DNA of 64,000 nucleotides from Nannochloropsis salina CCMP1776 (lineage: Eukaryota > Sar > Eustigmatophyceae > Eustigmatales > Monodopsidaceae), in the NCBI GenBank assembly GCA_004565275.1, contig SDOX01000006.1, positions 248,001 to 312,000 on the forward strand, given 5' to 3'. The notes beneath the pieces are model-generated. The model saw nothing but the letters and a program-made list of their open reading frames with translations. It was not told where the DNA came from and did no database searches. Of this stretch, positions 10,041-30,347 are shown in pieces (position 1 is the stretch's first letter; every line of letters starts with the position of its first letter). Both the position numbers and the translations under genes were made by a program.

Positions 10041-11585
10041 ATGTGGCTATCAGCGATGCTATCTGCACAGACAAGGGTTTCCTACAGAGGATTACGGCTG
10101 GCGGCGGTCACGCTCTGTCTTCTCAGTGGCCAGGCGCGTAGAGAACGTCTATGCCTTTTTTCCTGTGCGTTCTCTACTTCCCCTTCGCAGTCGCCACCAC
10201 CACCGGCAATACCTGCGTGTCATCCAACTACATTCTTTGGTCAATCTGTTCGCACTATTTTAGTCGTAGGCGACGGGGACTTCTCTTTTTCAGCGGCACT
10301 TCTCCCTTGGTTGCCTCCAAATGTGAAACTTGTTACGACATGCTTGCAGAGAGACGAGGACGATTTGATACAAAGGTACCCAGCCGCTGCAAGAAACCTC
10401 CAAATGCTTCGTGAGCAAAAAAGTGGTAAAGATTCTTTGGGAAATGCAATAGGATTTGGCCTGGATGTTATGTCATCTACGTTCATAGCTTCAGCTTTAG
10501 CTCATATAACTGCTCCAGAGGATCCGAACAGCCCTTCACGTGGGCAAAAGGTACAGAAGATAGAAACGCGCTCCTCGCAAAGTGAAAAGAATTTGTCTTA
10601 TTCATTCAATGACCTTGCGCTGCCAGGGAAAATCTCCAGCAAATACGATCGTGTCATTTTTAATTTTCCCCACGTCCCCGGCAAGAGTAATATCAAGATA
10701 AACCGTGCATTACTCAGCGCGTTCCTGAGCAAGTCAGCACACATCCTCCAAAATCCTGGCGGAGAAGTCCTGCTCTCGCTTTGCCGGGGTCAAAGCGGTG
10801 TGGAAGCCCGGGATAAGCGGGCGTACAAGGCCTCGTGGCGATTGCCAGTGTTGGCGGCAGATGCAGGTCTAGCCATATACAGCAACGAAGCATTCCCGGT
10901 CCGTGACACGAGATACGTCAAAGGTGTGTATCAGCCGTCAGGGCACCGAGACGGGGGAAAATCCTCGTACGTCTACGATGGAAAGGATCCGAAGCTTTAC
11001 ACGCTTCTCCGACCGTTCCCCTCCTCCTCTGCCTCCGGGCCTTCTTCTTTGCATCGCAAAGCCATATACGGCCCAGTATACGCGCATGAGGTACACATTT
11101 GGATGAGTCCTTGGTTGCAAATGAAAAGCCACTCGGAAGTAGCGTCTCTACTTAAAATTGCTATCGATAATTGCCTCGGACCGGAGGACGCGAGGCTAGT
11201 CGCAAAGGTCACATACACAGAAAGCTACTTGTCTCCGACACCGTCGCATCAGCCCAAAAATCGAAACAGCGGTTTCAGCAGCAGCGAATTGGAGGAAGAT
11301 AAAGTGGATTTTGCTTTGCAGGAGTCACGCGCCTTCGAGGTGCAATATGCCTGGCGAGAAGGCGGGGCATTGACCCGCGATAGGGCGGACGATCTGCGGC
11401 AACGCGTAGAGGATGGTTTGAAACAGCTTTCTTCGGGCCCTTGTTCCTCCGAAAGGAAAGATATGCATGACACAGCAGGACAAGGGCAGAGGGGTCTTGT
11501 GGGCGACATTTTGTTGCACAAGGCTGGCCTGCCCGTGGGAGACGTGACCCCATTGGCTGCACCTACTGTGTTTCAAGCCTTGTAA
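10041..11585 (+). CDS. DUF2431 methyltransferase-like protein (BMT5/FDXACB1 type)
   Basis: Single exon of 514 residues from ATG 10041. After a 65-residue N-terminus that could target an organelle (Arg-rich, with LRLAAVTLCLLSG) comes ILVVGDGDFSFSAAL, the hallmark of the DUF2431 Rossmann fold found in yeast Bmt5, which methylates N3 of a uridine in 25S rRNA, and in animal FDXACB1. Further family motifs are VTTCLQRDEDDLIQRYP, YDRVIFNFPHVPGK and the region around ILQNPGGEVLLSLC. Between these lies a Ser-rich insertion. The C-terminal 200 residues (VYAHEVHIWMSPWLQ, AKVTYTESYL) occupy the place of the ferredoxin-fold anticodon-binding domain of FDXACB1 but I cannot confirm that fold. S-adenosylmethionine-dependent rRNA methylation is the likely role. 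No neighbour supports it. Confidence 0.75.
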   Translation: MWLSAMLSAQTRVSYRGLRLAAVTLCLLSGQARRERLCLFSCAFSTSPSQSPPPPAIPACHPTTFFGQSVRTILVVGDGDFSFSAALLPWLPPNVKLVTTCLQRDEDDLIQRYPAAARNLQMLREQKSGKDSLGNAIGFGLDVMSSTFIASALAHITAPEDPNSPSRGQKVQKIETRSSQSEKNLSYSFNDLALPGKISSKYDRVIFNFPHVPGKSNIKINRALLSAFLSKSAHILQNPGGEVLLSLCRGQSGVEARDKRAYKASWRLPVLAADAGLAIYSNEAFPVRDTRYVKGVYQPSGHRDGGKSSYVYDGKDPKLYTLLRPFPSSSASGPSSLHRKAIYGPVYAHEVHIWMSPWLQMKSHSEVASLLKIAIDNCLGPEDARLVAKVTYTESYLSPTPSHQPKNRNSGFSSSELEEDKVDFALQESRAFEVQYAWREGGALTRDRADDLRQRVEDGLKQLSSGPCSSERKDMHDTAGQGQRGLVGDILLHKAGLPVGDVTPLAAPTVFQAL

Positions 11586-14198: not shown

Positions 14199-14791
14199 GT
14201 GTGTTATCGCTAACCACACAGCCTGTGGCTTTGTGAACGTAGATCCTTTGTCCGGTGGGAGTGTGGAAAAAAAGAAATGCATGTCACGCTTGTTTGGGGG
14301 GATAAGTCACCAAGTTATTATTCCTATCGTCGGAGTGGAGCCAGAATTCAATGTTTACTATAGCCACTTGATCAGATGTATCCCTAGCAACATGTGGAAT
14401 GCAAGCGACCGTCGAAAGAATGGTTTCGGACCGGGGTGGAATGGCCCGGGGCTGGCATTTTATTGAAGCAGGCGTCGCCACGCACATGTTTCCACGAATA
14501 TCAGCGAGGGAGGTTTCCTTCTGCTTCAATTCCACGCTAAAAATAAAAACAGACGTCATCCTGGACGCCGAGGTGGGGCGTATGCGTGCGGTAGCCTCAA
14601 ATTTATGCCGTAACGTGTATACAATTGTGGATGTGGATGAAGATGTGGTTGGGCTATGGGACAACGAAAATTCAAGGAGGAGGTCCCTTGTTCCTGCCTG
14701 TCACGGAACGTAATTGGGTCACATGCATACAACCATACGAAGTTACTGGGATTTACAGCGATCCTGTCCATAGAACAGATTGACAAATAGT
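14199..14791. other. Divergent spacer
   Basis: 593 bp between the starts of the hydroxylase and HIBADH genes, holding both promoters. Part of it may be coding if the hydroxylase starts at ATG 14282. No other feature is recognised. Both neighbours act in amino acid breakdown, so shared control is conceivable but not shown. Confidence 0.5.
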
Positions 14792-15853
14792 ATGCTCCTT
14801 CGTTCTCCGACAAAGCTGGTCAGGCATGGGCTTGTGCTTCGTTCCTCTCTCTTCTCTCGCTTTGACGCAGACTGGCGACAACGACACTGCAGCACGACGA
14901 CTGAGAACATGGATAAAGGAGGAGTCACCTTGGGTTTTCTTGGCTTAGGTCAGATGGGATCACGCATGGCAAGCAATTTGCTGGATAAAACGGACCTTCC
15001 AGTTGTAATTTATGACAAAAATCCTAAAACAATGTCATCCCTCGAAGCGAAAGGTGCTCGAGTTGCTGCCTCGGGCGAGGAGGTAGCACGCCAAGCACAT
15101 GTCATTATGACCATGCTCCCGGCCACGCAACACGTCCAGGCTGTATTCGGTGACATTATCATCCCTCACGCCCGGAACGGAACGCTATTGATTGACGGTA
15201 GCACGATTGATCCCACGGCAAGCAAGGCCCTGGCCGCCCGAGCCAAAACGATGGGGCTGGACATGGTGGATGCGCCTGTCAGTGGTGGAGTAGGCGGAGC
15301 CGAAGCAGGAACATTAACATTCATGGTGGGTGGAGACGTGCAATGCGTTAAAAAGGCAGAAAGGTCCATGCTTAGGCACATGGGCAAGAAGGTGGTGCAC
15401 TGTGGACCTGTGGGCACGGGCGCTATCGCCAAGATATGTAATAATCTGATCCTTGGCATCAATATGGTGGGAGTTGCGGAAGCTATGCGGCTAGGTGTGG
15501 CCCTGGGAATGGATCCGCACATTTTGAACGGCGTGGTCAATGCTTCCAGTGGTCGGAGTTGGGTTACGGAGACCTACAACCCGTGCCCAACGGTCGTTCC
15601 CTCCGCCCCGTCCTCCCACGATTATCAAGGCGGGTTTGCCTCCAAGCTTATGCAGAAGGATCTTGGGATCGCAGGCGACGCCGCCAAGGTGGTCGGAGTA
15701 CCATTACCGTTGGGCGCCGCGGCGCAACAATTATACGCTTTGATGCAAGTCAATGGTCTTGGCAATAAAGATTTTTCCAGCGTTTATCGCTTTTTGGAGG
15801 GAGCGAGAGGGAGCGACAGCAGCAAGAATGAAACTCGTGGCGAAAGGGAATAA
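14792..15853 (+). CDS. HIBADH: 3-hydroxyisobutyrate dehydrogenase
   Basis: Single exon of 353 residues from ATG 14792. The first 40 residues (MLLRSPTKLVRHGLVLRSS) are a typical mitochondrial presequence. The mature enzyme starts with the dinucleotide motif LGFLGLGQMGSRMASNL, followed by the family signatures VDAPVSGGVGGAEAGTL (substrate loop) and GPVGTGAIAKICNN, which carries the catalytic lysine. Near the C-terminus GGFASKLMQKDLGIA and ALMQVNGLGNKDFSSV match the dehydrogenase tail. The enzyme oxidises 3-hydroxyisobutyrate to methylmalonate semialdehyde with NAD in mitochondrial valine breakdown. Its length is slightly above the usual 300-340 because of the presequence and a Ser/Glu-rich end. 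The related tartronate semialdehyde reductase is the main alternative, but the overall motif set favours HIBADH. Confidence 0.92.
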   Translation: MLLRSPTKLVRHGLVLRSSLFSRFDADWRQRHCSTTTENMDKGGVTLGFLGLGQMGSRMASNLLDKTDLPVVIYDKNPKTMSSLEAKGARVAASGEEVARQAHVIMTMLPATQHVQAVFGDIIIPHARNGTLLIDGSTIDPTASKALAARAKTMGLDMVDAPVSGGVGGAEAGTLTFMVGGDVQCVKKAERSMLRHMGKKVVHCGPVGTGAIAKICNNLILGINMVGVAEAMRLGVALGMDPHILNGVVNASSGRSWVTETYNPCPTVVPSAPSSHDYQGGFASKLMQKDLGIAGDAAKVVGVPLPLGAAAQQLYALMQVNGLGNKDFSSVYRFLEGARGSDSSKNETRGERE

Positions 15854-17026: not shown

Positions 17027-19861
17027 TCACACTTCGCCCTTTCCTACGGCTGCCACAGTCAGCGGGCGCCGGGTGAGAACAAATATCGAGCCTCTGTTTC
17101 CCCGGCATATTCGAATGTGCTCATCCACAAAGGTCGTATCCAGCCAGCCATTCACGCCAAACACATCCATGTGTGGGAACGTCACCTTGAAACCCCCCAC
17201 GTCCACTTTTGCCGAGGTGAACTGTACATCTTGGCGATGGCCCTTGTTCCTTCCTCCATCCTCCACCCCCAGCGCATCGCCCTTACTTTTCTGGCCTCCC
17301 GCGGGAGTGGAAATGATCCCGTTCAATTCCACCTTCGTCGTGATGCCCAGAAGCCCTTGATAGACCGCCGTGTTCGACAACAGGTTCTTCGACGTGTCGA
17401 TCGTCTGAGTAGATTCGTCTGTGTCCACCCACAAGGGTCGCCCTTTGGACGGTGTAAAATCTAGCAGATATCTCTCTCCACCGGCGGAACGCAGACGCTC
17501 CTGTAAACGCGCCGATTTTTCTTCGGAATACAGCAAGACATCGTCCGTCTCCCGAGGAGAACGGGGAAGAGGCTTGGATGCCGGTTCTGCAGCTGGAAGC
17601 GAATGGGCCGACCCTCCTTTCTCTTCTGGTTGCTGCATCCGCTCGCGCGCCTCACGGGTCACGCGTTGTTGCTGCCTTGGGGTCATGGTCCGCCATGGGT
17701 AGGGTCCTCCCGCCGCTGTGGCCGTCGCGTCCAATGCCGGGCGCAGGTCTTGCATTCGGAGGGACTGTTGTTCCCCCTCCTTCTGTTCATCGTCGGGAGG
17801 GAGGGACGCCAAATCACCAGGATTAGCATACACCAAATGCCATGTCCCATTTACGGCGCTGTCCTCTATCACTACCTCTCCATTCCCGCCTTCCTCGTCC
17901 TTGAACTGCCTGGCAAAGCCTCGTTCCAAACCTTGCACGATCGACAGAATCATGGAATGTTGGCCCCGGGTCGCTTTTCTTCCCCTCTCCGTGCACTCAA
18001 TCAACCGCAAGAGTTCCATTTCCAACGCGCGCCTTTCGGCCAAAAATTCACGAGACTTGCTAGCCTCCATGAATTCCTTCAAGGCTTTGCGATAGATTTT
18101 CAGAGGCTTGTCGTACCGACTCAAGACATACCCGGCCTGGTGTTCCTGATACAGAGACTCCAATATCTCCTTGTCCTCGTTCAACGTCAGACGCATGACC
18201 GACTGGAAGAAATGGTCCAGGCCCTTGTTGACGGGACTCTCGTCCTGCGGGTGCACGTACATGAAATTACGGTAGAGCTTGTAATGCACCACGGTCAACC
18301 CGTCCTCCACGGGGACGGCCACCACGTAGATTGTCTTGACGTCCTTCCCGAACTTGACGCGGGTCACCGTCGTGTACGGCAAGTGGAACTCGTTCTCCAC
18401 CACCACCTCTTTGACTTGGCCCACCACTTTACTGATACTCGTAGGTCCTGCCCGGTATTTGAAGGTGGTCCTGGCGTACGGGAGGAGCTGAGAGGCCTCG
18501 TCGTCGAAGAAATAGTCGTAATTCTCCGAGAACGGCAACGGTTCCTGCATGTTCCCAAAGGAGTGCACGTACGATATGTGGAGCATGTCCAACAAATTCT
18601 CAACCACCAAATTCGCGCTCGCCTTGATCTCCGTCACGCCTTCCACCACTCGGAAGGACGGGTCCACCTCCTCCGGTATCAGGAAGGGCTTCACGTGCTG
18701 TTCAATCGCGCCGGCCCGCATGGCATCCGGGAAGAGGTAGATCAAGCCTCCCTGCTCCAAGGTTTTGTACCACACCGTGCGCGCCGTCCGCTTGTTCTTG
18801 GCCAGCATGCCCTCGTCCACCCCCGGGATGTAGCGGAGCTTGCCTTCCCCGTCGAATTTGTAGGCATGGTAGGGGCAGACGACCAGGTCCCCGTCCAACC
18901 AGCCGTCCGACAGGGCAGCGGCCCGATGCAGACAAATGTCGCTGATGGCCTTGACCTCCCCCGAAGCGGCTCGAAAGAGGCAGATCGGCTTGTCGTCCAC
19001 CCAGATCTTTTTCAGCTCCTTCTTCTTGAGGGAGGAGGAATGACAAACGGCCAACCACGTGTTGGGCACTTTGCCCGAGATTCGCGCAATATTTTCGTTC
19101 ACCGGTTCTGGTACCTTGCCCAAGGCCACGTCGCTGGCGCTCAGGGACGTCGAGGGAGAAGGAGAGGAGGAGGAAGATTTAGCGACGGCGGCAGGCAAGG
19201 CACTGTCGCAAGGTGATTGCAAAGCGGCAGCCGCGACATCAGCGGCGCGGGATTGATCCGGAAACGACACGGTCGTAGTGGAAGGACTTCCAAGGGTTAC
19301 CAAGCTGCTTCCCCCTCGTCCCCCGGCCCCGCCCTTGGTCTTCGCCAACGCAGTTGCTGCAAGGGTTGCAACCGCCTCCTCGTGTGTCGAGTCCGCATGG
19401 CTGTCGATGGAGGCTATTCCCTCGAAAAGGGACTTAAACTTGGTCAGGATCTCATCGTGAAGGGAGGGCGTGGAGGACGACGGAGCCTGAGTGCCTTCGA
19501 CCTGGTCCTTATCCTTCCCCTTCGACGATTTTTTCTTTTCCGGCAGTCCATCGTCGTCGCGGTACTGCTCTTGGAACGGGCTAATGGCGTGGACCGGCAA
19601 GGAAGATCTGTCCCTGGCATGTCTCTTTCTTGCCCCGCCTTTTTCGAGACAGGTGGTAGGTAGAAAGTACGGGACGCGTTGGCAATGCGCCGTCCTCTGC
19701 GCTGTTGAAGACTTGTGGGGAGCCCATGAGAACTGAGTAGGCGGTGCAAAGGCATCCACCATGATGGGACTGTACAGGGAGGAGCCACGGAAGGTACTGG
19801 CAGCTGCAGCAGTGGCAGCAGCAACGGCCAAGAACGTATAAGATGAACTTGCACCGGACAT
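17027..19861 (-). CDS. Plastid Rieske oxygenase (PAO-like) fused to a PAP/fibrillin domain
   Basis: An uninterrupted frame; I start at ATG 19861 (944 residues) because it opens a better signal peptide. ATG 19930 adds 23 residues. The presequence ends VDA-FAPP, the plastid-import site of secondary red plastids. After a long Ser/Ala-rich linker comes a Rieske 2Fe-2S centre, CLHRAA...CPYHAYKF (Cys-x-His-x16-Cys-x2-His), at about residues 310-333. The mononuclear iron site NLLDMLHISYVHSFG (Asp-x2-His-x4-His) follows near residue 425. These are the marks of pheophorbide a oxygenase/Tic55/chlorophyllide oxygenase-like enzymes. From about residue 620 a second domain appears: LIECTERGRKA, NGTWHLVYAN, and the end GWLDTTFVDEHIRICRG with GSIFVLTRR. 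This is the lipocalin-like PAP/fibrillin fold of plastoglobule and thylakoid lipid-binding proteins. I infer an oxygenase acting on a lipophilic pigment or prenyl lipid held by the fibrillin domain. The exact substrate is unknown. Confidence 0.88.
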   Translation of the reverse strand: MSGASSSYTFLAVAAATAAAASTFRGSSLYSPIMVDAFAPPTQFSWAPHKSSTAQRTAHCQRVPYFLPTTCLEKGGARKRHARDRSSLPVHAISPFQEQYRDDDGLPEKKKSSKGKDKDQVEGTQAPSSSTPSLHDEILTKFKSLFEGIASIDSHADSTHEEAVATLAATALAKTKGGAGGRGGSSLVTLGSPSTTTVSFPDQSRAADVAAAALQSPCDSALPAAVAKSSSSSPSPSTSLSASDVALGKVPEPVNENIARISGKVPNTWLAVCHSSSLKKKELKKIWVDDKPICLFRAASGEVKAISDICLHRAAALSDGWLDGDLVVCPYHAYKFDGEGKLRYIPGVDEGMLAKNKRTARTVWYKTLEQGGLIYLFPDAMRAGAIEQHVKPFLIPEEVDPSFRVVEGVTEIKASANLVVENLLDMLHISYVHSFGNMQEPLPFSENYDYFFDDEASQLLPYARTTFKYRAGPTSISKVVGQVKEVVVENEFHLPYTTVTRVKFGKDVKTIYVVAVPVEDGLTVVHYKLYRNFMYVHPQDESPVNKGLDHFFQSVMRLTLNEDKEILESLYQEHQAGYVLSRYDKPLKIYRKALKEFMEASKSREFLAERRALEMELLRLIECTERGRKATRGQHSMILSIVQGLERGFARQFKDEEGGNGEVVIEDSAVNGTWHLVYANPGDLASLPPDDEQKEGEQQSLRMQDLRPALDATATAAGGPYPWRTMTPRQQQRVTREARERMQQPEEKGGSAHSLPAAEPASKPLPRSPRETDDVLLYSEEKSARLQERLRSAGGERYLLDFTPSKGRPLWVDTDESTQTIDTSKNLLSNTAVYQGLLGITTKVELNGIISTPAGGQKSKGDALGVEDGGRNKGHRQDVQFTSAKVDVGGFKVTFPHMDVFGVNGWLDTTFVDEHIRICRGNRGSIFVLTRRPLTVAAVGKGEV

Positions 19862-21458
19862 TTTGCGTTTCGTCCCAGCAGTCCGGCATAGATGAGGAGG
19901 TATTAGGAACGGGTCTTGCACTGGTGACATCTTTGATAAGGTTTGTCGAGGGCAAAGTCAGATAAGAAGTACCACAAGGCCCAGCGCGGAGAAATGGCCG
20001 CGGTGGCCCTCAAAGAGTTCTGAAAGACGACTTGCAAGCGCTGCTGTCGAAAAATGAAAATGGAGAAGTGGATTTAGAATGAAAAAATACCGATTGTCTT
20101 GGGGTAGACGAGAACGTGAACAAAAAGAGAGGGCGTTGTCAAGAGGAGTTGTGGGCCGAGCCCAAGTGACGAGGTAAATGGAGGACGAGAAGATCGAAGG
20201 CGTCAGAGGCACACGTAAACACCTAGCTGCCACTGAAGAAATGGCTGTGTGTGGCACGCAGCATACGGAGTAGATTGGTGACGGAATAAAGGCCTCGGAG
20301 GGGGTAGAACACATCAAGGAAAAAGACGACGCCACCGACTTTCGTCGCTTTTCTGCGGGGCCATGTCATCATCAACGCAAGCGACCAACCCCACTTCCTA
20401 TCACATCGCGAGCTCACAAACACCACAAATGAGCGGCATTGCCTTTAGAATTAGCTATATTTACTGTCATGATGCTTTCCGGGACCGCAAGGGTGTCATA
20501 GGCTCCGATTTCGACCAGGGCGGGAAGGCCATAAGGAAGAGGGCGCCTGACAGAAAAATCGTGACACGCACGTTCGCTTTAATTTTAGTCTCGCCAAGAC
20601 CCAAATAAATGAGGCCGCGCGTTCTGACACCGGCCAGGGCACATGCTGACTTGGACATCGGAGGACCACACGACAGCGGCTTGATCAAACTCGCGTGGCC
20701 CTGCCTGTCAGGCCCGCCAAACTCATTTTCAAGTACGTACCAATTTAAAAGGCAACACATGCGTCAGTTGGAGCCTGATCATGAGCGCGACGTACTTTAA
20801 GAGTAGTACGTGTTATGGATTCTCGCGGAGTGACCCGGCGAGATAAATGGTCTGGCTGGACATTTGTTGTATGAGGACACGAAGCAAGTGGACGCATTTA
20901 TTTGTCCATGGGTAGTCATGGACGACAACCAGCGCAATTACCGTGGTTTAAGTCGCGGGACAAAAAAGATATTACCCCCGGGCATTAAATACCCTCAAGT
21001 ACACAGCTAAATGGGCCAGGAAGGTGCTTCATCAAAAATACCACACCAAAACACATTAGCTATGGTGTGCACAGTTTGCAAAAACAGAGTGGCATAGCAC
21101 TTTAAGATTCAAAGAATGAAACGTCGAGGATTATTTATAATTGCAAGCACATTTTTCTCTATGTGTATTTGTTATACAATTGCCACTTTATCAATCACAA
21201 CTCTGAACGACGTTATCCACGTCGGGTTCCAAGATGGTACGCATGTCCTTTCAAAGAGCAATACACCAAGGCCATGTTTTCAAGTCTTATTCTTTAGCTC
21301 ATTACCTAAGCGTACATTTACATGACTCCCCGACAAGTCTTTCTCCGCCTTTACTTCCTGGTGTTATCGCATTATTTGCTTTGCAATCAAATTTTTAAGA
21401 TGGTTCTCATAACCGTTCAGTTACCGATGACCTATGTAATCTATGTCTAAAAACCATG
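19862..21458. other. Intergenic region, no confirmed gene
   Basis: About 1.6 kb upstream of the minus-strand Rieske-fibrillin gene. It should contain that gene's 5' UTR and promoter, and the 3' UTR of the alpha/beta hydrolase gene. A 49-codon frame on the minus strand (20372-20223, beginning MMTWPRRKATKVGG) looks mildly protein-like but has no recognised relative. The part 20800-21450 is AT-richer and holds nothing I can name. Confidence 0.4.
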
Positions 21459-24220
21459 CTACCAAGCCCGCGAAACTCGCAAGAACAAATGGCCCCGATA
21501 CTGCTTGTACACATAGTTTCCCAGCATCAGCTCACGCACCTCCGCATCCGTTGCCCGTGCCATGAGGGGAAAGTCGCCAATCTCCACCTCTCGATACGCC
21601 GAGGCCGTCAGCCACCGCAAATGGTTCTTGTTGTGCCCTTCGTAGGCGCCGTGCGAATAATACTCATGCCGCTGTTGCCTGCCCAGCAACTGGGCGTCGT
21701 CCTGCGAATGTGACGTCACGGTCACCTTGGAAGCGGGTGCGAGAGGAAGAGCGAGGGGGGGTTGAATGGTGGGCGACAAAGGTGGCAGAAGCGGCATGGC
21801 TTCTTGCAGGGAATTGAGGCTCTTGTTCCCAAGGGCCAGCGTCTTATGCGCGGGCACCCGACGCCGGAAAATCGCTGTGGCCATGTCCGTGGGAGACGTC
21901 ATCGAAGGGGGGGAAGTGGCACCATCGTCGGTCGGAAAGCATCGAAGGCTCTCGTTCGGATTTTCCTGATTTGACAAGGTCCCTGCACTGTGTCGACGTT
22001 GGAAAATAGACAGGGACACGGAGGTCCGCAAAGGCGGAGAATGGGAAGACGGCGACGCGCCCGAGATAAGGGTCGAGAGGGCGACACACGACGTGGCCCC
22101 CATGGCCCAAGCGCTGGGGTCGGCGTTTTGTTCTTCCTCCGTCTCCGGGAGGAGATGGCTCTTGAGGCCACTAAGCCCGCCTCCCAAGCTGCCACCCGCA
22201 CTGTTGAGGAGGCTGAAGCAGATCTCCACGGACTGATGCCGGCGGAGGTCGGCCTTTTTCAATCGGGGCCCGTCCACGGCATGACCAAAGGAGAGGAAGT
22301 ACATGTAGACTGCTGCCACGTGCCGTGATCGCAGCCGGTACCAGGGAATACCAGGGGGATCCAACTGAACGAAGGCGGTCAAATGGCGCAGAAAGAATCC
22401 CCTGCGGCCGATCAAGCTGGTCTGGAACTGTTCAAACACAATCCCAAGCCCTCGGAGGGCAAGCACCTCCTTCTGCACCACCACCATGATCGGCCATCCC
22501 GACAGGTAGGCCTTTACGCCGAGTGTGGCAAACGCGTCCAACAGGGCGATGCGTGTCGGTAGCTGCAAAGGGGCCTGTGTAGCTGCTGCTGCTTTCGCTG
22601 CCGTGCAAGCGGCTGCTTGTGCGGCCGTTGAGATTGCCGCAGCTCCGGAACGTTTAGCTGCCGCTACGGTCTTTCGTTTATCTTTCTTGCTTGCATATAC
22701 CCCCATTTTTGCCTTCATCGTGGCCGCTGCCCCCGTCCTGGCAACTGCCACGGCCGCCGAAGCGGCTGCGGCGGCTAAAACAGTCGCCGACCTGACTTCT
22801 TCTTCCTCTCGCGCTTTCCGCTGGCTAAGCAGGGTGGCGGCATGCACGACCACCTGTGTACCCAAACTATGCCCCACAAGCCTGTAGGGAGCCTGAGCCC
22901 CCCTAAACACGTCCGCCAACAGGTCCGCGAGGGTTTGGGAAATGGAGGGGGAAGGCCGGGAGGAGGCGTAGTACATGACGCGACCCCTCTGGGGACAGAT
23001 CGTCCGATAACGCATCCCGCACCGGCCGTTCGAGGTCCATATTTTGCTCTCTGTGTCCTGTGGAACCTCCTCTGATAGACAGAGCACGCCAGAAATGGGG
23101 AACAGATGAGCCTTGTGCACAAGGGGAGCGCATGCGGATCAGGGATATAAAACACCTTTCAATGCACCGCTCACTCCAACATTCTCCCCGTCCCCTCCCT
23201 CCAGTCGCACCTACCGTCGGCATGATTGTTCCAGAAGAATATTCCGATATTCCAGCCTTCCCGTACCCATCGATCGGCGGCATTGATATCCAGACCGTAC
23301 AGCTTATCGCTGTGTGCCCAGTTGAAGGTCTCTCGAAAACGTCGGGCCGTGGTCCGGCGGGAAAACCCATGGACATAGATGACAGTGGGTTTGTAGGGGT
23401 CAAAAAACTTGCACTGACCCTTGGGATTCGCGCCAATCGTGCTCTTTTTCCCCTTGCGCCCGCGTAGGAGGGACATGGGGAAAGTTGGAGCAAGATCCTC
23501 TGCCGCGGAGGAGGAAGATGAAGGCAACCATTTCTCACACTGGTTATCAAGGCCGAAGAAATAGAGACCCATGTCCACAGGAGCCTCGTCACCGTCGTGC
23601 ACGTGCACTGCTGGAGTTTGGAGGACGTTTTCGGAGAGAAAACGAGCCAGGCGGAAATATATCACCACCAGCATGCTCCAAACAGTCAAAACGAGAAGCA
23701 CCGCTGGCCACACCACATTGGCGACGACTGCCACAATCAGTGGGGCGTCATAGAAGGGGACGACGTCCTGCTTCTCGTAAATGTTGCGAGGCAGTGTGAA
23801 GGGAAGAGGTTTGACGGCCGAAGTGGAGGGTTCTGAGTTTATAATGCCGTCCAGCGGGTGCTGTGCGTGCGGGATGGATGCGAGTGGTGACCCCTCGTCG
23901 GAAAAGGACAGCGGATCCTCCCGTCTCCCGGCTACGAGCGGACCATCGGCCCTCACACTTGTTGAGGATGAATCCTGTGAGAATGAGTGAAAGACAATTT
24001 TAATTTTTTTATTTAAGAGACTGTGAATGAAAGATTGCCGACGTATTGCCGGTATGGTTGTCACCATAAAATGGGGCAGATTACACAAGTCACCTACGTT
24101 ACCCAACAAGTCGGTCGACAACAACGCCTCAAGCGACCAAATAAGAGAATTGTCTAGGACCATTACCTCAGCTGTACTATCGATGCTTTGCGGTACTACA
24201 GTCTGTCCGCCGCCACCCAT
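21459..24220 (-). CDS. Membrane-anchored alpha/beta hydrolase (lipase-like)
   Basis: Three exons in my model, 24220-24167, 23974-23215 and 23071-21459, giving 808 residues. The second junction (GTAGGT donor, CTATCAG acceptor, phase 1) is secure because it joins FFWNNHAD to EEVPQDTESKIW. The first is less sure: its intron is 192 bp, in phase 0 and free of stops. A single membrane span lies at about residues 96-125 (IVAVVANVVWPAVLLVLTVW). The hydrolase domain starts with TVIYVHGFSRRTT and carries the nucleophile elbow LVGHSLGTQ with Ser340. A roughly 70-residue Ala-rich insertion separates it from the next strand, RIALLDAF. HLTAFVQLDPPGIPWY and the closing ATDAEVRELMLGNYVY follow, after a second low-complexity Ser/Pro-rich stretch. 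A lipid or acyl substrate at a membrane surface is likely; the substrate is unknown. Confidence 0.75.
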
Positions 24221-25457: not shown

Positions 25458-28400
25458 TTAAGTCATATCTTCTGCCTGAAGGGCAGCTCGCGTAGCCTCA
25501 ATCTCTTGTTGTAGCGTGATTTTCATGTGCAATATGTCAGTTTCTTCCCCCTCCTTCCTCTTCCCGTTTCGTTCTCCGTGTTGCCAGCCTTCCCAATTCC
25601 CTGTCTCATTGTCTCTTCTTTCCCCATTCTCGCCCTCTTCCAACGACGAATCGTCCTCCAACAAGGCCATATGGATCGACAAACGCTGCAACTTCGTTGT
25701 AAGCGCAAGCCTTCTCTGATTGAAGCCTGATTCCACCCCTGCATTCTCAGTTGCGTCCTGTACTTCCTCTTGGGGGTACTCGAAACTTACAACATGTTGT
25801 ACCGAGTTTTGGGGTTGTTGTCCATCGATTTCACCTTTTGCTTCTCCCACCGAACCAAGATTTATTTCGGAAAAGCGGTCTGCACCTGCGTGTCCTCCCT
25901 CTGCCCCTTTCCCCCCCGACCCTGTCTCTCCTGCGCGGCTTGCTTCCACCACCTCCTTGTTCCCAAGGCCTGTACGAGGATCAGTCTTCACGCCATAGCA
26001 CGTTGCATTCACCCCTTCCGTGCTGCATCGCCCCTGCTCCTCCATCTGCCTCTGGCCCGGGACCTCCGCGTCCGCTCCCATTCCTACGAAGATGGGTGAC
26101 GATGCAGTGGAGCTCAGGGACCTACCTGGAGATGAAGAGGAAGACAGCGACATAGGAGTCAATGGCATGCTCGGACATAACGGGGTACACGACGCCTCGT
26201 CGCTGCCTCCCTCTTCGAGCCGCCGGTGCCGGTAGGACTTGGGACCGAAGAGCATCTCATCCCGAGTTTGCACAGACGTGTTCAACGATTCCACCGCCGC
26301 TGCCATGCGCTGTTGAATCGACTCTAGAGTCAGGTCGTTGCCGTGGTCAGGCGGCCATTCCCCGTCGTCCGGTAAGGGCGTGGACCGCGCTAGTGCCTCC
26401 TGGGCCTTCGATGCCCCCGGGGGAGTACGAAAATCGGTCAACACAGGCGTTGCGGGCGGAGGGGAGGGTCTCGGCACTATGGGCGGAGAGCAAGAGACGG
26501 CTGGCGGTTGCGACATGTCCATCCGCGGGGCCGACGTCGCCTTCTCAATGGAGGCGGGAGAGGATGTCTGTTGGCGAGCCGTCGGAGCGGCTTCTGCTTC
26601 AAGCGCCTTGGCCGGCGCTCGGCCGCTTCCCTCGGCCATTTCCGTCACCGCGGCCACGAGTGCGACCGCCGCCCTGGTCCGGGGCGTGATGTCTTGCTCC
26701 TGGCCCTGCCTTTCCCTCGAACGCGTGGGCCCGGAGAGATTTGGCAGCCTGGGTTTGCCTGCCTCGGGCGGGTGGTCTGAGGCGGCCTCTCGCTCTTCCT
26801 GCGCACGTTCCCAGGCGGCTTCCACCTCGTGCATCTGCTGCAAGACCGTCTTTTCCACCAGAGCCACATGTTTGATCTTGGCCTGCAGCTTCACCCTCTC
26901 CTCTTCGATCCACCTGCGTGCTTCTTCCACCTCCTTCACTTTCACAGCCGCCGCCTCTGCCGAGACGAGCAGGCGCTGGCGCAGACTCTCCGTTTCTTCC
27001 TCTTTCCCCGTTGCCGCCGCATACTTCTCCAAAATCTCCGCCCGCATTCTCTCCATCTCCCCTTGCACTTCGTCGCGCCATGCCTCGAGCTCCCGGCGTC
27101 GTCGCTCTAGGCCGCGCTCCTCCTCAGTCACTGCCTCTTTCCATCGATCCACCCGCACGGCCTCTGCCTTCACTTCTTCCTCTTGCCGCAACACGCGTTG
27201 TGCCCGCTCCTCCAGAGCACGCCTTTCCCCGTCCCATTTCTCCCGCTTTTTGTCCAGCACGGCTTTCACTTGCGCCAACTTCTTCCTCTTCTCCTCCAAG
27301 CCCACCCTTTCCTCTTCCAGCATACGTGACACGCTTCTGGCCTCTCCCAACCGAGCCCGTACCTCGGCCGCATCCCGCTTCCTCCCCTCCACCACCAGCC
27401 TTTTATCGCTCCCTTCCTTTTGTCCTCCACTCCTCCCTCCCTCTTGGAAATACGCGTCCTCCAAACTGAGAAGAATTGCATCCCGACGGGCCACATTATC
27501 TGCCAAGCACTCCAACTCCAGAGCCCGGGACCGCAGCTGTGCCTCCTGGCGTTCCACCGCCTCTTTGGCAGCCTCCAACGCCATCCTCTCGCTCTCCTCG
27601 ATGGTCAGGCTCCGTCGACGTGCCTCCCCTTCACGACGCAACGCCTCCTCCAAAGCCTTTTGTCGTTCCGACAGAATCGCCTCGCTAGTCGCCAACCTCT
27701 CCCTCCACCGAGCCCCTTCGCCCTGCAAAGTCAGCACTTGAGCCTCTGCCTCTTCCAGGGCCTTTTTGTACTCCTCCATTCTTCTCTTCGCCTCTCGAAC
27801 TTGAGCGCGCCCTTCTTCAAGCTCTTGTGTGAACACCTCGTACCGTGCGGCGATTTCCTCCACTTCCCTTTCCTTCTTCAAGGCCTGCTTCAGCTTGCGC
27901 TCAGCCTCCCCCACTTTCTCCTCCGCCATGTCCAAGCGGTCCTCGGCACGCGACCGCTTCGCGTCTGCCTCCACATTTTTCGCTTCCAACAACGCTCTTT
28001 CCTGCTGGCAGGCCTCCACCTGTTCCCTCAGATCCTTCTGTGTCGCTTGAACCGCCAACCGCGTCGCTTCCACCGCGGTCCGCTCCTTCTCCACGGCCTC
28101 CCGCGCTTGCTTTACGTCCCCTGCTTCCCGCATCAGCCTCGACGTCCAAGTCTCCAATTCCTCACGTTCCCTCGCCAGAGCCTGCGCGGTCTGGGTGTTC
28201 TTTTCGGCCCGGGCGCTGACTTCCTCTTTCACCCCACTGAACCCCAGGAGCATCTCTTGCCTTTCCTTCTCCAGGGCGACCTCCCTTTTCCTCAACTCCC
28301 GGGCCAATGCTGATAATTTCTGTCCCTCTGCCACCACCCCTAGTTCTCTCACCTCCAGAGCCCTGCGGTCCTCCTCCAAGGTGGCGGCCGTCTTCTGCAA

Positions 28401-30347
28401 GGACTTCTCCGTCCGCTCCAGGTCTTCCCGCTCTTGCTTCATCCGAGCCTCGGTTTCGCGCAATTTCGTTTCGCGTCCACGTGCCTTCTCTTCCACGTCT
28501 CGCCGCAAGGAGGCCGCAGACTCCTCTTGTTCCACCCGCCCCGCTCGCAAAGCCCGTTCTTCGGCCCATTTTTTCTCTTCCCAGGCCTCCATCTCCTGCG
28601 CTAAGGCCCGTCGGTGGGCCGTGAGCTCGGCCTCCCACTCACGCTTGTCTGCCCGCCCCGCCTCTGCCTCCTTCTCGAAAGCCGCCAGTTCCTTCTCCAG
28701 CCGGCGCTTGGCCTGCACCAAACCTTCCTCCTGCTCACGATGACGGTGCTCCACGGCCTCCCGCATTCTCTCCAGCTGCTCTCTTTCCTTTTCCAAGGCT
28801 GCCCGCTCCGCCTTCCACTCCTCTCTCAACCGACCCGCCTCCGCCTCCGTCGCCTCTCCCTGAAGCCGCACCTCCTTCAAGGCCTGAGCCTTCATACGTT
28901 CCACCTCCTCTGTCGTCTCCCGCTGGTATTGGGCAAAGACCTCTTTCTCCCGCTCCACCTCGCGGTGCAAACCCTGCGCTTGCATCGAGGCCTTGGTCAA
29001 CTCCGCCGTTGCACCCTCCACCTTCTTGTCGAGCTCGCGCAGGTGGTGCCGTTTGGCGTGGATTTTTTTTCGCGCCATTTCTGCCCGCCCTTCCAACTCT
29101 CGCGTCTCTCCTGCCACCTCCGCCAGGCGCTGGCATTTCTCCTCCAGCTCCCTCCGGACGCCTTGCACATCCTCGTGCACGCTATCCCATGCCAACTCTC
29201 CTTGCCGCAACCGCTCTTCCATCGCCTCGCGTCGTCGGGCTTCCTCTCTTTGCAGGCCATCAATTTTTCCTTCCAATTCTTCCCTCCGAGCCGCCAAGGA
29301 CCTCACTCGCTCCTCCACCCTCTCCAAGGTGCCTCGTGTCTCCACCTCCCGCTCCCTCATCCTTTTCTCAGTCTGATCCATCGCCCTCTGTGCCTCTGAT
29401 TCTCGTCTTTCCAAATCGATCCGAGCCTCCTCCAAAGTGCGTTTGGTCTCGTCCATCCCCTCCTCCCTCGAACCCAATCGACCTTCCCACTCCTGGAGTC
29501 GAGCCCGTCGTTCCTCCAAAAGTTCCGCCTTCTCCTCGAGCGTAGCTTGCTTCGCTTCTATTTCTTTCGTCCGTGCATCGAGCTCCAGCCGCTCCTGACG
29601 TTGGCTTTCCAAGATACTATCCATAGACTGCACTTCGGTCTCTTTCTCCGCTACCACCTTGGCCCGTTCCGCCAGAGCCAGCTCTCTTTCGCGCAATTTT
29701 TCTGCTTTGACCCGCACCTCCGCCATGACCGCGTCCAAGTCGTGGGTGTGGGAGTCTAGGGCTTTTTCTTGGGCCTTGAGGGCCTCCACACGGTGTTTGA
29801 CCTCCTCCTGGTCCTGAGCGAGGTCCTGCTCGCGGGTCGCCAACTCTTGTTCCCGTTCCCGCAATGCCGTCGTCTGTTCCTGCGCATGTCGTAGCATGTC
29901 GGCCACACGTTCTTCACGGACCTTTGCAACACGTTCCAAACGCAAGGCTTCTTGTTCACGCCCTTCAATCTCACGGAGCAAGGCCCTCACTTCATCTTTC
30001 TTGGCCAATACTTCCTTCTCTAACGTTAATAAAAGCGCCTCCCGCTGACCACCTCCGATGCCACTGGCACCACTCGATGCAAAGGATGGTGTACTTGCTG
30101 CCATTTGGCTTCGCCTCAAACTGGCAATGGTCCCTTTCGCTCGTTTTGTTTCATCTTGGGCCCTCTGAAGTTTGACCTGCAAGGTCTCTCGTTCGCGCAA
30201 CAAGGTAGAGATTTGGGACTCTAACTCCGTGGCACACTGCAACAGAAGATCCTCCCGCGCAGCCAATGCTACGGCATCCATTGGCTGTAATGCTGACGCC
30301 GATGGGGCTGGCGTGAGTGCCATCGGCAGCGAGGGAGTTGACAGCAT
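25458..30347 (-). CDS. Giant coiled-coil protein, 1629 residues
   Basis: One uninterrupted frame from ATG 30347. After a short low-complexity start (residues 1-25) nearly 1200 residues consist of Glu/Arg/Lys/Ala-rich heptads (LEEKAELLEERRARLQEWE, for example), a long alpha-helical coiled coil with few breaks. From about residue 1230 the composition shifts to Pro/Ser-rich disordered sequence. A short second helix closes the protein (ILHMKITLQQEIEATRAAL). There is no signal peptide, membrane span, motor or other catalytic domain. Proteins of this build serve as golgins, centrosome or basal-body scaffolds, kinetochore fibres or cytoskeletal linkers; sequence alone does not choose among them. The opposite strand shows long Ser/Leu-rich frames across the gene, which are shadows of its GC-rich codon use. 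I cannot assign a family. Confidence 0.85.
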   Translation of the reverse strand: MLSTPSLPMALTPAPSASALQPMDAVALAAREDLLLQCATELESQISTLLRERETLQVKLQRAQDETKRAKGTIASLRRSQMAASTPSFASSGASGIGGGQREALLLTLEKEVLAKKDEVRALLREIEGREQEALRLERVAKVREERVADMLRHAQEQTTALREREQELATREQDLAQDQEEVKHRVEALKAQEKALDSHTHDLDAVMAEVRVKAEKLRERELALAERAKVVAEKETEVQSMDSILESQRQERLELDARTKEIEAKQATLEEKAELLEERRARLQEWEGRLGSREEGMDETKRTLEEARIDLERRESEAQRAMDQTEKRMREREVETRGTLERVEERVRSLAARREELEGKIDGLQREEARRREAMEERLRQGELAWDSVHEDVQGVRRELEEKCQRLAEVAGETRELEGRAEMARKKIHAKRHHLRELDKKVEGATAELTKASMQAQGLHREVEREKEVFAQYQRETTEEVERMKAQALKEVRLQGEATEAEAGRLREEWKAERAALEKEREQLERMREAVEHRHREQEEGLVQAKRRLEKELAAFEKEAEAGRADKREWEAELTAHRRALAQEMEAWEEKKWAEERALRAGRVEQEESAASLRRDVEEKARGRETKLRETEARMKQEREDLERTEKSLQKTAATLEEDRRALEVRELGVVAEGQKLSALARELRKREVALEKERQEMLLGFSGVKEEVSARAEKNTQTAQALAREREELETWTSRLMREAGDVKQAREAVEKERTAVEATRLAVQATQKDLREQVEACQQERALLEAKNVEADAKRSRAEDRLDMAEEKVGEAERKLKQALKKEREVEEIAARYEVFTQELEEGRAQVREAKRRMEEYKKALEEAEAQVLTLQGEGARWRERLATSEAILSERQKALEEALRREGEARRRSLTIEESERMALEAAKEAVERQEAQLRSRALELECLADNVARRDAILLSLEDAYFQEGGRSGGQKEGSDKRLVVEGRKRDAAEVRARLGEARSVSRMLEEERVGLEEKRKKLAQVKAVLDKKREKWDGERRALEERAQRVLRQEEEVKAEAVRVDRWKEAVTEEERGLERRRRELEAWRDEVQGEMERMRAEILEKYAAATGKEEETESLRQRLLVSAEAAAVKVKEVEEARRWIEEERVKLQAKIKHVALVEKTVLQQMHEVEAAWERAQEEREAASDHPPEAGKPRLPNLSGPTRSRERQGQEQDITPRTRAAVALVAAVTEMAEGSGRAPAKALEAEAAPTARQQTSSPASIEKATSAPRMDMSQPPAVSCSPPIVPRPSPPPATPVLTDFRTPPGASKAQEALARSTPLPDDGEWPPDHGNDLTLESIQQRMAAAVESLNTSVQTRDEMLFGPKSYRHRRLEEGGSDEASCTPLCPSMPLTPMSLSSSSSPGRSLSSTASSPIFVGMGADAEVPGQRQMEEQGRCSTEGVNATCYGVKTDPRTGLGNKEVVEASRAGETGSGGKGAEGGHAGADRFSEINLGSVGEAKGEIDGQQPQNSVQHVVSFEYPQEEVQDATENAGVESGFNQRRLALTTKLQRLSIHMALLEDDSSLEEGENGERRDNETGNWEGWQHGERNGKRKEGEETDILHMKITLQQEIEATRAALQAEDMT

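Follow-up and report, generated by a model that had tools for sequence, protein, structure and literature searches.

The window analysed here, a 64,000-nucleotide stretch of the Nannochloropsis salina CCMP1776 genome (contig SDOX01000006.1, positions 248,001 to 312,000), encodes on its reverse strand (17027..19930, (-)) a protein in which a Rieske oxygenase is joined to a PAP/fibrillin domain, and the same fusion is present in several other ochrophyte lineages. The open reading frame runs uninterrupted over 967 codons, with zero internal stops. We consider it moderately probable that the protein works in the plastid as a monooxygenase of the VanA/DdmC type, fed by ferredoxin and acting on an isoprenoid lipid, its fibrillin part docking the enzyme or holding the substrate. 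The architecture is new, the parts are known, and the function is likely but unproven. We found no description of a Rieske-fibrillin fusion in the literature searched, a scope that left most subscription papers outside, in line with a preliminary description of this stretch that had put the fusion forward as a candidate for an undescribed system.

The oxygenase half begins with a Rieske [2Fe-2S] domain (residues 291-373, 18812..19060, (-)), matched by PF00355 at E 2.8e-20 and over the curated cut-off, in which motif reading found all the cluster ligands, C333-x-H335 and C352-x2-H355. It continues into a VanA_C-type catalytic domain (residues 435-622, 18065..18628, (-)), matched by PF19112 at E 1e-10 with 42.5 bits against a curated cut-off of 23.5 and carrying a mononuclear iron site, N445-x2-D448-x2-H451-x4-H456 together with D586. 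By analogy with the enzyme class we take H451, H456 and D586 to be the 2-His-1-carboxylate iron ligands and D448 to be the bridging aspartate. These four columns are nearly invariant in an alignment of 23 rows (A5), four of them bacterial-type, and 21 of its members match PF19112 at E <= 0.001; the Rieske_2 and KshA_C profiles also matched the window protein, below their cut-offs. The domain matches and ligand motifs bear out the preliminary claim of a Rieske centre and a mononuclear iron site in a single frame. An AlphaFold2 model of 685 residues has a mean predicted local distance difference test score (pLDDT) of 72.5, the oxygenase occupying its first 35 ten-residue blocks, of which 31 reach 83 or more, and structure comparison of the model gave a DdmC-like predicted oxygenase fold.

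Behind the oxygenase, PF04755 matched the C-terminal part of the protein at residues 829-952 (E 9.5e-13, 49 bits, cut-off 22), within a fibrillin barrel that extends over residues 829-955 (GRPLW...GWLDTTFVDEHIRICRGNRGSIFVLTR; 17066..17446, (-)). Alignments place the N-terminal fibrillin helix motif (ELLRLI..TERG..AT..) at residues 637-680 (17891..18022, (-)), as does the full-length PF04755 match in the Chrysoparadoxa orthologue P0010, and a G-T-W strand of the barrel at residues 695-712 (17795..17848, (-)). The best PF04755 stretch in the window protein spans profile positions 71-197 of 198, and that in P0010 positions 4-197 of 198. Between strand and barrel the alignment reveals a low-complexity insert (residues 713-815, 17486..17794, (-)), much of it at pLDDT < 50. 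The fibrillin domain therefore looks, on the sequence, complete but split by an insert of about 100 residues, and the preliminary description's apparently complete PAP/fibrillin domain stands with that interruption added. This insert is shared by the window protein with its close relatives; in other lineages, Ala-rich inserts sit elsewhere in the fibrillin domain. At its C-terminal end the domain can be aligned with entries for fibrillin 5 (FBN5), the sole fibrillin among the solved-structure matches. The gap between the oxygenase and the fibrillin part is bridged by a pair of long predicted helices at residues 605-646 and 655-679 (17894..18118, (-); 323-364 and 373-397 in the numbering of the AlphaFold2 model).

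The true start of the protein is likely Met24 (19861), since P0001, the database copy of the window protein, begins there. The presequence that follows (19745..19861, (-)), read from sequence and hydropathy, has a hydrophobic stretch at residues 33-44 and, about 15 residues further on, an AFAP motif at residues 60-63, whose Pro codon lies just below 19745. Plastid proteins of stramenopiles carry a signal peptide followed by an ASAFAP-type motif, and the hydrophobic start and AFAP would fit targeting to a complex plastid; the preliminary description had proposed a plastid presequence. Hydrophobic starts also occur in the fusion models P0007, P0010 and P0012 and in the unfused P0008 and P0014. 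A poorly conserved Ser/Ala-rich linker, delimited by alignment (residues 63-282, 19085..19744, (-)), separates the presequence from the oxygenase.

The preliminary description had suggested looking for this domain order in other stramenopiles, and we found it in several ochrophyte lineages. An initial protein search returned eight proteins, one of them the window's own; PF00355, PF19112 and PF04755 occurred together in P0002, P0003, P0006 and P0007, while P0005, a fragment, had PF19112 and PF04755, P0004 stops within the insert, and P0008 is without the fibrillin part. Close relatives of the fusion share 80-82% identity with it, and P0006, P0007, P0009, P0010 and P0013 are 40-45% identical to the window protein, the fusion occurring at this distance in Tribonema, Chrysoparadoxa and brown-alga-like proteins. 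A profile search widened the set to 72 proteins, of which the 12 with an organism name came from Tribonema minus, Chrysoparadoxa australica, Phaeothamnion, Phaeomonas, Ectocarpus (four entries), Hapterophycus, Laminaria, Discosporangium and Sphacelaria. Four of these lineages were confirmed as ochrophytes by taxonomy look-up and the remainder are brown algae; there was no diatom, haptophyte or green-alga name among the 12, no search having been aimed at those groups. PF04755 was found in seven of the 12 named proteins, and four of those without it are entries marked partial, one of which, P0016, visibly enters the fibrillin motif. When ten proteins were scanned for domains, eight had PF04755 (all but P0008 and P0014) and six (P0002, P0003, P0006, P0007, P0009 and P0010) had all three domains over cut-off; the Rieske part is missing from the Phaeothamnion model P0013, and P0012 has a VanA_C match that stays below cut-off. 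Two Ectocarpus models, P0011 and P0012, lack the middle of the oxygenase, with the end of the Rieske domain and the iron-site segment, probably through an exon skipped in annotation; this middle is present in P0006, with which they share 77-78% identity over the aligned parts.

The join between the two halves looks, from these comparisons, real and old. That it is an accident of the gene model is very unlikely, since the same fusion recurs in other algal lineages. The corresponding explanation, separate genes or a stop-containing intron between the two domains, could draw on the GC content at third codon positions, which is 0.81 in the oxygenase part and 0.61-0.63 in the rest; the single open frame across the bridging helices and the identical domain order in independently annotated algae, P0009 and P0010 for example, speak against it, and we give it almost no credence. 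In the tree the unfused P0008 groups with Phaeomonas P0014, and a comparison of a single origin of the fusion with loss in the Phaeomonas group (approximately unbiased test, p-AU 0.34) does not decide between the two.

With the fusion alignment, a scan of prokaryotes gave 124 matched stretches, none encoding a relative; a query of bacterial-type relatives matched at least 590 stretches, of which 584 code for relatives, and the best 80 were kept. In the tree, nine single-domain relatives of 322-357 residues (P0025, P0026 and P0028-P0034) branch together as sister to the oxygenase of the fusion. Several of them are lysine/asparagine-rich and two have possible plastid-type starts; their hosts are possibly small algae or viruses of such algae, and a scan of viral contigs turned up 39 matches to the pattern, with no relative among them.

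Among known systems, the oxygenase groups with the VanA/DdmC-type Rieske monooxygenases (PF19112), which are bacterial, about 20% identical to the window protein, and, unlike it, without fibrillin or plastid presequence. The best named profile was that of SdmA, a bacterial 4beta-methylsterol monooxygenase (NF052579, E 3.5e-23, residues 281-456), which also differs from the window protein in having no fibrillin. P0073, named renierapurpurin 18,18'-hydroxylase and presumably CruH, was among the distant profile matches (E 8.1e-17), with 30% identity over about one third of the query. In cyanobacteria CruH is a Rieske enzyme that hydroxylates a carotenoid. Synechoxanthin synthesis uses CruE and CruH (PMC9958174), and the methyl groups of sterols are the target of SdmA (PMC10202945). 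With the fibrillins the protein shares PF04755, here placed behind an oxygenase. Other fibrillin fusions already on record involve a kinase in FBN11 and the dual-module FBN10 (PMC11580037), and in Ostreococcus FHA domains (PMC2716323). Within the genome that holds the window, the nearest other fibrillin frame to profile A3 lies on contig C45 (L002/L004; E 1.3e-10, calculated over a small set).

O2-dependent oxidation is predicted from the domains and ligands, and the chemistry of the protein follows from the former. In Rieske oxygenases of this class, such as dicamba demethylase, electrons enter at the Rieske cluster and then move to the adjoining subunit of a trimer, at whose iron O2 insertion is driven. 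In our reading the fusion would be an enzyme that ochrophyte algae encode in the nucleus and use in the plastid, with photosynthetic ferredoxin as the simplest plastid donor to its [2Fe-2S] cluster. From there electrons would pass to the mononuclear iron of the adjacent subunit within a trimer, where O2 would be activated and the substrate hydroxylated or demethylated. The fibrillin barrel may anchor the enzyme to the lipid of plastoglobules or thylakoids, may keep a hydrophobic, probably isoprenoid, substrate close to the active site, or both; the preliminary description had proposed delivery or holding of the substrate by this domain and a plastoglobule or thylakoid location, and both ideas are plausible. 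The pointers to an isoprenoid substrate are indirect and by analogy, namely the sterol chemistry of SdmA, the distant match to a carotenoid hydroxylase, and the effect of a diatom fibrillin, whose overexpression was accompanied by more fucoxanthin (PMC10160619).

Several observations weigh against this reading. The Phaeomonas protein P0014 (623 residues) carries the oxygenase alone, and the fibrillin part may be dispensable for catalysis, since P0008 and P0014, as annotated gene models, lack it. Five fusion models (P0002, P0003, P0006, P0009 and P0011) start without a hydrophobic stretch, perhaps cut short at the start. The top Foldseek rank went to saxitoxin-pathway oxygenases, which act on small polar molecules, with DdmC fourth. 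The window protein reached 82.1 bits where the equivalog cut-off of NF052579 is 600, which places it outside SdmA, and P0073 sits on a very long tree branch (length 3.0), so that neither SdmA nor P0073 fixes the substrate. The blocks over the fibrillin barrel in the 685-residue model have pLDDT of 39-83, and a model of the orthologous fibrillin domain from Hapterophycus was poor (pLDDT 51.7), its top Foldseek match being rice FBN5 at E 4.1e-4 with a template modelling (TM) score of 0.20-0.30; given this low to medium confidence, the fibrillin call rests on the profile match and not on the fold.

Some of these points would suit an explanation in which the fibrillin part is a mere address label or scaffold, serving plastoglobule or thylakoid docking or protein contact and never touching the substrate, which might then be small or soluble. 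Phaeomonas P0014 and P0008, which are unfused yet begin with hydrophobic stretches, are consistent with this, as are the closest solved enzymes, which include DdmC, SxtT/GxtA and NdmA, all with small substrates. Plant FBN1a, FBN1b and FBN2, moreover, form protein contacts (PMC8793873). The GRPLW, GW and RGN stretches of the barrel are identical in all four rows of alignment A3, perhaps beyond what an anchor needs, a point that is not decisive; we regard a label without substrate contact as possible but rather unlikely. A bolder version of substrate holding would be a plastid oxygenase that loads itself, hydroxylating a xanthophyll or prenylquinone while its own barrel holds it; such an enzyme could provide the oxidation leading from neoxanthin towards vaucheriaxanthin in eustigmatophytes and xanthophytes, and reactions of a similar kind in brown algae and allied groups, a reading that we think improbable. 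The neoxanthin to vaucheriaxanthin step was assigned to 'unknown enzymes' in 2023 (PMC10157934). Vaucheriaxanthin synthesis was not adopted as the general function because brown algae carry the fusion and a fragment of a pigment table has vaucheriaxanthin esters under Xanthophyceae and Eustigmatophyceae but not under Phaeophyceae (PMC11857680). A role in chlorophyll c metabolism was likewise set aside, since according to the same source Eustigmatophyceae lack chlorophyll c.

The preliminary description had called the oxygenase PAO-like, and an enzyme of chlorophyll breakdown resembling pheophorbide a oxygenase would share its Rieske centre and plastid-type presequence. The plant plastid oxygenases PAO, TIC55, PTC52 and CAO combine, like the fusion, a Rieske centre with a mononuclear iron and are plastid enzymes, as the fusion is predicted to be, and three PAO-like loci of the same genome show weak similarity to the window protein (26-38% over parts). 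The PaO domain was nevertheless not found in the window protein: no PF08417 match was listed at E up to 10, HMMER filters dropping most matches above E of about 0.1, and the three other loci exceed the PF08417 cut-off. In the tree, too, the two PAO-like paralogues that were included lie a long way from the window protein. On these three grounds we rejected PAO membership, and the label gives way to the VanA/DdmC grouping; a PAO-like function now seems very improbable. The PAO-like Rieske loci are L008 (contig C2), L011 (C86) and L009/L018 (C6), the last seemingly intron-split. Another Rieske oxygenase frame, L012 (C19:168479-168739), is absent from the PaO matches and by its family features presumably resembles choline or glycine-betaine monooxygenase.

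The neighbouring genes gave no pathway hint among the 10 open reading frames scanned of 77 with at least 150 residues. They include a DUF1118 protein (1466-2335, (-)), a BMT5-like rRNA methyltransferase (10041-11585, (+)), a 3-hydroxyisobutyrate dehydrogenase-like protein (14780-15853, (+)), an alpha/beta hydrolase-like protein (21459-23120, (-)) and a 1629-codon open frame (25458-30347, (-)) that no Pfam profile matched at E <= 0.001.

No second copy of the fusion was found in its own 26.5-Mb genome. A fibrillin joined to an enzyme of readable chemistry offers a handle on the ligands of fibrillin barrels, and the fusion marks a plastid-type trait common to several ochrophyte lineages.

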